Below are positions 34,100 to 34,432 of a stretch of 64,000 nt of DNA, piece after piece. Source of the DNA: an uncultured Rikenellaceae bacterium (GTDB taxonomy: Bacteria > Bacteroidota > Bacteroidia > Bacteroidales > Rikenellaceae); NCBI GenBank assembly GCA_944321925.1, contig CALUND010000010.1, forward strand, positions 1 through 64,000. The letters run 5' to 3'. Made by a program: the position numbers and the translations under genes. The notes under the pieces were generated by a model. That model searched no databases and was not told the DNA's origin. It worked only from the letters and a program-made list of their open reading frames with translations. How positions within the stretch are numbered: the stretch's first letter is position 1; the number at the start of each line of letters is the position of its first letter.

Positions 34100-34243
34100 A
34101 TGCTTGAAAGTTTAATGAAACATTAATTTTTATCTGTTCTGCATGCTAAATTAAACAAAAAAAAAGATGTGTCAAAATAAACCGGACGAAAAAACGAAGG
34201 GCTTTTGTTAAAAAATGCCTGTCGCCACGAAGCCGTGTCCGGT

Positions 34244-34291
34244 TGTCAGGTCCGCTGTCAGTCGCGACTGACAAAAAAGCACTTTTTGTCA
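34244..34291. promoter_or_regulatory. Cluster of TGTCA/TGACA half-sites upstream of dnaK
   Basis: Four half-sites occur in 48 bp: TGTCA at 34244, TGTCA at 34256, TGACA at 34269 and TGTCA at 34287. The middle pair forms a perfect 18-bp palindrome (TGTCAGTCGCGACTGACA), and TGACAAAAA at 34269 pairs with TTTTTGTCA at 34283. A near-consensus -7 sequence (ACCTTTG, about 34333-34339) lies 40 bp downstream. This is a likely operator or activator site for dnaK or for the divergent small HTH gene. The remainder of 34100-34432 shows nothing else. Confidence 0.5.
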
Positions 34292-34432
34292 TACAAATTC
34301 TCCGAAATCCGTGGAAACAGTGCGTTGGCATAACCTTTGAGAAGAAGGGGTTGAAACAGATGAAACGTAGAGGCTCAACAAAAGAAACCGACACAAAATT
34401 TTAAAGAACAAAACTTAAAAAAATAAACAACT

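Follow-up and report, generated by a model that had tools for sequence, protein, structure and literature searches.

A conserved TGNCA dyad before the dnaK genes of Bacteroidales and a candidate sigma-54 activator of heat-shock chaperones

Described systems of chaperone control

In the HrcA/CIRCE and sigma-32 (RpoH) systems, one regulator serves several of the genes dnaK, groESL, clpB, and htpG. The control proposed here would share this property. However, it would consist of an activator acting with sigma-54, and not of a repressor or an alternative factor of the sigma-70 family. Promoters of the sigma-54 type cannot fire without an ATP-driven activator. One of these is PspF, an enhancer-binding protein (bEBP) of the phage-shock response. 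It combines an AAA+ domain with a Fis-type HTH, has no N-terminal sensor domain, serves a stress target, and represses its own gene through the enhancer sites. The candidate bEBP that we describe resembles PspF in its domains, the missing sensor, the stress target, and the proposed negative autoregulation. It differs in its targets, which are cytosolic chaperones. It also differs in carrying before the HTH a linker of roughly 100 residues with a conserved EREILYk-LFDM segment.

The control of Bacteroidota chaperones by sigma-54 was already predicted in 2025. In the portions available of Carrera-Reyna et al. (PMC12316311), DnaK, GroEL/ES, GrpE, IbpA, DnaJ, and proteases are enriched among the PSSM-predicted sigma-54 targets of Bacteroidota, and Hsp90 is likewise enriched in Bacteroidia. 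The same portions call the GrpE and GroES of B. thetaiotaomicron sigma-54-dependent, and cite for this their reference 80, a paper on nitrogen recycling in Blattabacterium. The words "UAS" and "upstream activat" are absent from the main text, and the portions available assign no activator.

A second described system is RprY, proposed to repress groES, clpB, and dnaK in P. gingivalis (PMC3646045, in the portions available). As proposed here, it acts at these promoters in a Bacteroidales species. However, it is a regulator of the OmpR/PhoB type, it does not bind htpG, and it has no defined site in the available portions of PMC3646045 and PMC6032018. The BtModulome study (PMC12596196) contains, among its passages with chaperone or sigma-54 terms, a single one about heat shock, on SigH. 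In the open-access literature searched, we came across neither this enhancer nor its activator by name. Bacteroidota are among the dominant bacteria of the human gut, and the switching of their chaperones seems to be little described.

The half-sites and the promoter of dnaK

We analyzed a stretch of 64,000 nucleotides, here called the window (Table 1). Its dnaK is closest, among named loci, to those of an uncultured Rikenellaceae bacterium (92% identity) and of an Alistipes MAG (88%), which places the window probably in the Rikenellaceae, order Bacteroidales. A previous sequence-only reading had described in it four TGTCA/TGACA half-sites within 48 bp, two of them forming a perfect 18-bp palindrome, between dnaK and a divergent HTH gene. 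Sites, palindrome, and both open reading frames were found as it described them.

Table 1. Positions of the features in the window and, where a G000 contig is given, elsewhere in the genome of the window
Feature	Position	Strand	Remark
Gene of divergent HTH protein, 81 aa	33854..34099	-	judged a bystander
Candidate enhancer dyad A, GTGTCCGGTTGTCAG	34235..34249	.	contains half-site 1
Half-site 1, TGTCA	34244..34248	+	within candidate dyad A
Half-site 2, TGTCA	34256..34260	+	left arm of the 18-bp palindrome
Perfect 18-bp palindrome, TGTCAGTCGCGACTGACA	34256..34273	.	formed by half-sites 2 and 3
Candidate enhancer dyad B, CTGACAAAAAAGCAC	34268..34282	.	contains half-site 3
Half-site 3, TGACA	34269..34273	-	within candidate dyad B
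Half-site 4, TGTCA	34287..34291	+	starts 38 bp before the -24 element
Sigma-54-type -24/-12 promoter of dnaK, TTGGCATAACCTTTGA	34325..34340	+	perfect match to TTGGCAYNNNNTTTG
dnaK, 639 aa	34433..36352	+	open reading frame; PF00012 (HSP70), 880 bits
grpE element, copy of the window's genome	G000:C17:131330-131344		
Candidate enhancer-binding protein (bEBP), 404 aa	G000:C11:78764-79975		AAA+ ATPase, Fis-type HTH
Second bEBP (L063)	G000:C2:40895-41395		receiver domain and AAA+; GAFTSA replacing GAFTGA

The whole window contains 66 TGWCA words (TGTCA or TGACA), and the cluster upstream of dnaK, with four in 48 bp, is the densest. In 100 dinucleotide shuffles, the densest 48-bp cluster held two words in 86 cases, three in 14, and four in none. 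The cluster is not random. By itself, the palindrome is less striking. It is the only perfect one of 18 bp in the window, and shuffled windows give 0.35 on average. It occurs once in the 1.9-Mb assembly. With up to two mismatches, TGTCAGTNNNNACTGACA had one further match in the genome, and the reversed-pattern control had equally many. The only loci with the exact palindrome, among all those compared, are copies of that of the window. This restriction led us to reject it as the recognition unit, and it looks like a local pairing of half-sites.

The CIRCE element (TTAGCACTC-N9-GAGTGCTAA) has no match with up to three mismatches in the whole window, in line with the sequence-only reading. CIRCE as the control element of this dnaK was rejected on that basis.

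The predicted promoter of dnaK starts 108 bp before the start codon, and the TGWCA cluster lies 34-90 bp upstream of it. It has the TGGCAY-N5-TTGC-like core and the GG-N10-G[C] spacing, with A replacing the final C. The GG-N10-G spacing and the TGGCAY core are the sigma-54 consensus. A scan of the genome with TTGGCAYNNNNTTTG and one mismatch allowed gave 81 matches, against 71 for the reversed control, and is uninformative by itself. The comparison between genomes says more. With one genome per family of Bacteroidales, a sigma-54-like site (score of at least 19.5) is present in 68/69 dnaK upstream regions and in 1.2% of the shuffles. This sample contains 69 usable genomes of the 79 in the order, the window's included. 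Six were left out with dnaK fragments only (G120, G125, G129, G159, G162, and G165), and so were G131, G153, G172, and the locus L108 (73 bp of upstream sequence). Likewise, 76 of 80 named dnaK loci are above the promoter cut-off. Upstream TGTCA/TGACA words are present at least once in 73 of these 80 loci and at least twice in 59. The named loci overlap with the order genomes (L156 and L332 have identical upstream letters), so the two sets are not independent. The sequence-only reading had proposed a different regulator of heat shock. One other than HrcA or sigma-32 is indeed likely. However, it had missed the class of the promoter, which is of the sigma-54 type.

In the 125-bp zone upstream of this promoter, TGTCA/TGACA occurs in 61 of 68 regions (19.1 expected). 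It shares the top rank among 5-mers with the overlapping word CTGAC/GTCAG. Most of the words fall into two groups, 51-90 bp and 11-40 bp ahead of the -24 element, counted from its first base. The first group is at the usual place of sigma-54 enhancers, and the second is closer than usual; half-site 4 of the window belongs to this nearer group. Half-sites at only 11-40 bp are frequent, which is a point against an enhancer.

In profiles centered on TGTCA, a partner appears at a distance of 8 bp, in the form C-TGNCA-NNN-TGNCA-G. So read, the unit conserved upstream of dnaK is a 15-bp dyad, cTGNCA-N3-TGNCAg, and not the palindrome. In the motif search, a 17-bp seed gave a weaker motif. A 16-bp seed converged on a GC-rich pattern of low information (likelihood 965 vs 910 for the 15-bp dyad), and it was discarded.

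The training set of a first motif was limited to 50 regions of groES and htpG from the window's family, and a dyad was called at 9 bits. With this motif, 63 of the 68 dnaK promoters from other families carry a dyad (2.4% of shuffles), and the other five do not reach the cut-off. Outside the Bacteroidales, the dyad is present in 21/21 named dnaK promoters (3.1% of shuffles), among them those of Flavobacterium, Pedobacter, and Chitinophaga. These loci were chosen by title; those with no more than Bacteroidetes or Bacteroidota in the title were left out, as was one titled Chlorobiota. A second motif was trained on dnaK, groES, and htpG, with the window's promoter left out. It gives at least 11.3 bits to all 14 other dnaK promoters compared from the window's family. 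The promoter and the dyads, their conservation, and their occurrence together are properties of the sequences themselves.

The window itself is less typical. Dyad A has 7.7 bits with the first motif (rank 38 in the window) and 6.4 bits with the second (rank 61). Dyad B has 7.9 bits (rank 35) and 10.4 bits (rank 7), respectively. With the first motif, both are below the cut-off of 9 bits. A combined scan of the window for a sigma-54 site with a dyad gave no match. On the other hand, half-sites 1 and 2 are 12 bp apart, and no other spacing of TGNCA words is as frequent in dnaK promoters (17 pairs). The window thus seems to be a drifted case of a strong pattern, with the step kept but both dyads imperfect.

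Other heat-shock genes and the candidate activator

The genome of the window has strong dyads before sigma-54-like sites of other chaperone genes. That of clpB has 14.1 bits (C1:23058-23072) and that of htpG has 14.6 bits (C11:9887-9939); both genes are outside the training set of the first motif. We found no groES gene in this assembly. Of the 28 groES regions from relatives, 26 are above the promoter cut-off, and these 26, the ones used for the profile, all have at least two TGWCA words. The same number of words, or more, is present in 26/26 htpG loci of the window's family with a located start (27 loci in total). The sequence-only reading had asked whether the palindrome precedes groES, clpB, and htpG. 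Similar sites do precede them, in this genome or in relatives, but the exact palindrome does not.

We also searched 15 genomes of the family, blind to genes, for TGWCA words followed by a gap and a sigma-54 site. There were 93 matches, against 51 for the reversed control. Thirty of them were examined, two per genome. Sixteen precede htpG (8, one site being counted twice), dnaK (5), hsp20 (1), lon (1), and grpE (1). The remaining 14 are before other genes or before none that could be named. For these assignments, htpG, dnaK, and grpE were recognized by their N-termini, and hsp20 and lon by Pfam and NCBIfam. At one locus (L295, G027:C2:179509-179546), the pattern precedes an open reading frame that, by eye, resembles an ECF sigma factor, a possible additional target.

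The likely binder of the dnaK dyads, judging by the sequences, is a bEBP of 404 residues and not the 81-residue HTH protein. It has a Sigma54_activat domain (PF00158, 226 bits) with a GAFTGA loop and Walker motifs, followed by the HTH (HTH_8, 42.5 bits). PF00158 begins at residue 18, which leaves no N-terminal sensor or regulatory domain. In the window's genome, the next gene is presumably LptE-like, a label given by reading its sequence. An orthologue (E < 1e-100) is present in 76/79 genomes of the order, the window's included; G148, G163, and G197 show no clear one. In 30 orthologues, the loop is GAFTGA in 11 and GSFTGA in 19, and TIFLDE is present in all. Their recognition helix, ISERTLYRK, is identical in 30/30.

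The sigma-54 gene, rpoN, was found in 76/79 order genomes. It was not found in the genome of the window (G000), the only member of its family searched, whose assembly is 84.9% complete.

The window's genome encodes two strong PF00158 proteins. The second one, for which Pfam found no HTH domain, could act at the chaperone promoters too. Six genomes of the order have a single strong match, and we analyzed five of them, leaving out G120, which lacks a usable dnaK. In these five (G121, G133, G142, G174, and G189, with 99% completeness), the only PF00158 match over 200 bits is the bEBP orthologue. They have three to seven other matches each, all below 37 bits. They also have rpoN, and dnaK dyads of 12.5-17.7 bits with a motif that was not trained on them. 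In these genomes, the PF00158 search left the bEBP orthologue as the sole strong candidate for opening a sigma-54 promoter of dnaK.

The bEBP genes themselves show half-sites. The sequence TAnnTTTGTCA is upstream of 15/30 of them, with one gene per family (L222-L251). Its first part, TAnnTTTG, we take to be the Bacteroidota -7 box, running into the half-site. These boxes continue with TCA in 15 of 28 cases upstream of bEBP genes, in contrast to 22 of 994 elsewhere. The TGWCA words in these regions are 36 (mean of 10.1 and maximum of 18 in 200 shuffles), and the dyad cut-off is reached upstream of 15/30 genes. The bEBP gene of the window's genome (L222) closely follows another open reading frame and has no TAnnTTTGTCA box. 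The arrangement of box and half-site, by analogy with PspF, suggests negative autoregulation.

We consider it probable that the cluster is the enhancer region of a sigma-54 promoter of dnaK, and that the conserved bEBP, most likely its binder, activates a regulon of chaperones. As a dimer or a higher oligomer, the protein would bind TGNCA half-sites in pairs. The DNA would loop between enhancer and promoter, and the ATPase would open the closed sigma-54 RNA polymerase at the predicted promoter, driving dnaK. Further targets of the bEBP may be clpB and htpG in the window's genome and, in relatives, groES; together with dnaK, these would form a heat-shock regulon under sigma-54. By covering the -7 box, the bEBP would probably also repress its own gene. 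How heat, the presumed signal, might reach it is a guess. Since the bEBP lacks a sensor domain, it may be controlled in trans, either in the way that PspA holds PspF or by chaperone titration.

In this group of gut bacteria, the bEBP and sigma-54 probably switch on the main heat-shock chaperones. Since sigma-54 needs an ATP-driven activator, dnaK, groES, clpB, and htpG would then depend on one AAA+ protein. If so, the supply of chaperones hangs on it. A broader reading is that one ancient bEBP is the master heat-shock activator of Bacteroidota. It would be autoregulated and sensorless, act with sigma-54 through its own dyad, and fill the role that in other bacteria belongs to sigma-32 or HrcA. 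We lean to this reading only slightly. The bEBP has been traced through one order, and the dyads at dnaK also reach outside the Bacteroidales.

Alternative readings of the dyads

The dyads could be operators of another regulator, such as the OmpR-type RprY repressing the chaperones, with the sigma-54 enhancer located elsewhere. In gel shifts, RprY binds the groES, clpB, and dnaK promoters of P. gingivalis (PMC3646045, in the portions available). The same portions report that it did not bind htpG, a gene with at least two TGWCA words in every locus of the window's family whose start was located. The RprY papers, in their available portions, define no binding site. Moreover, the conserved unit in our data is an inverted repeat upstream of a sigma-54 element, and it recurs at the gene of the bEBP. 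We regard operators of this kind as unlikely.

Another possibility is that TTGGCA..TTTG is a housekeeping promoter of Bacteroidota, or some other element, misread as sigma-54, and that the TGTCA words are sites of some unrelated activator. Bacteroidota sigma-A promoters use TTTG boxes too. The grpE genes point in the same direction. They have a conserved TTGGTAY-N5-TTTG, and their 29 regions (L125-L153) contain only 10 TGWCA words and, with the first motif, no dyad (0/29). The regulon is not uniform, since grpE has the promoter variant without the dyads; from the sequences, this gene may use another activator or another class of promoter. However, the spacing and the core before dnaK fit the sigma-54 consensus. 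An independent PSSM study, in its available portions, also finds Bacteroidota chaperone genes enriched among the predicted sigma-54 targets (PMC12316311). A misread promoter seems to us very unlikely.

The sequence-only reading had tied the sites to the divergent gene, and its 81-residue HTH protein might bind the palindrome and control both dnaK and itself. The gene is well kept (112/120 genomes of the family), and its product has no Pfam or NCBIfam family above the cut-off. The window and 11 more loci of the family have it divergent from dnaK. Of these divergent loci, 9/12 have a dyad scoring 9 bits or more in the 250 bp before the HTH gene, in contrast to 2/18 of the rest. The latter are 2/15 without a dnaK start in view and 0/3 on the same strand as dnaK. 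In one of the two with dyads (L004), the contig ends before dnaK could appear. Conversely, the sites stay with dnaK where there is no HTH gene nearby: of 110 loci centered on dnaK, only the window's own and L300 have one within 1.5 kb. The dyads travel with dnaK; judged by this distribution, the 81-residue protein is not their regulator, and we rejected it. Besides, a sigma-54 promoter needs a bEBP and not a small HTH protein. Its role as regulator is scarcely credible.

Finally, a chance cluster without function, for which the frequency of palindromes in shuffled windows and the lack of conservation of the exact palindrome might speak, is practically negligible and was rejected, as it is contradicted by the order-wide conservation of the promoter (68/69) and the dyads (63/68) at dnaK.
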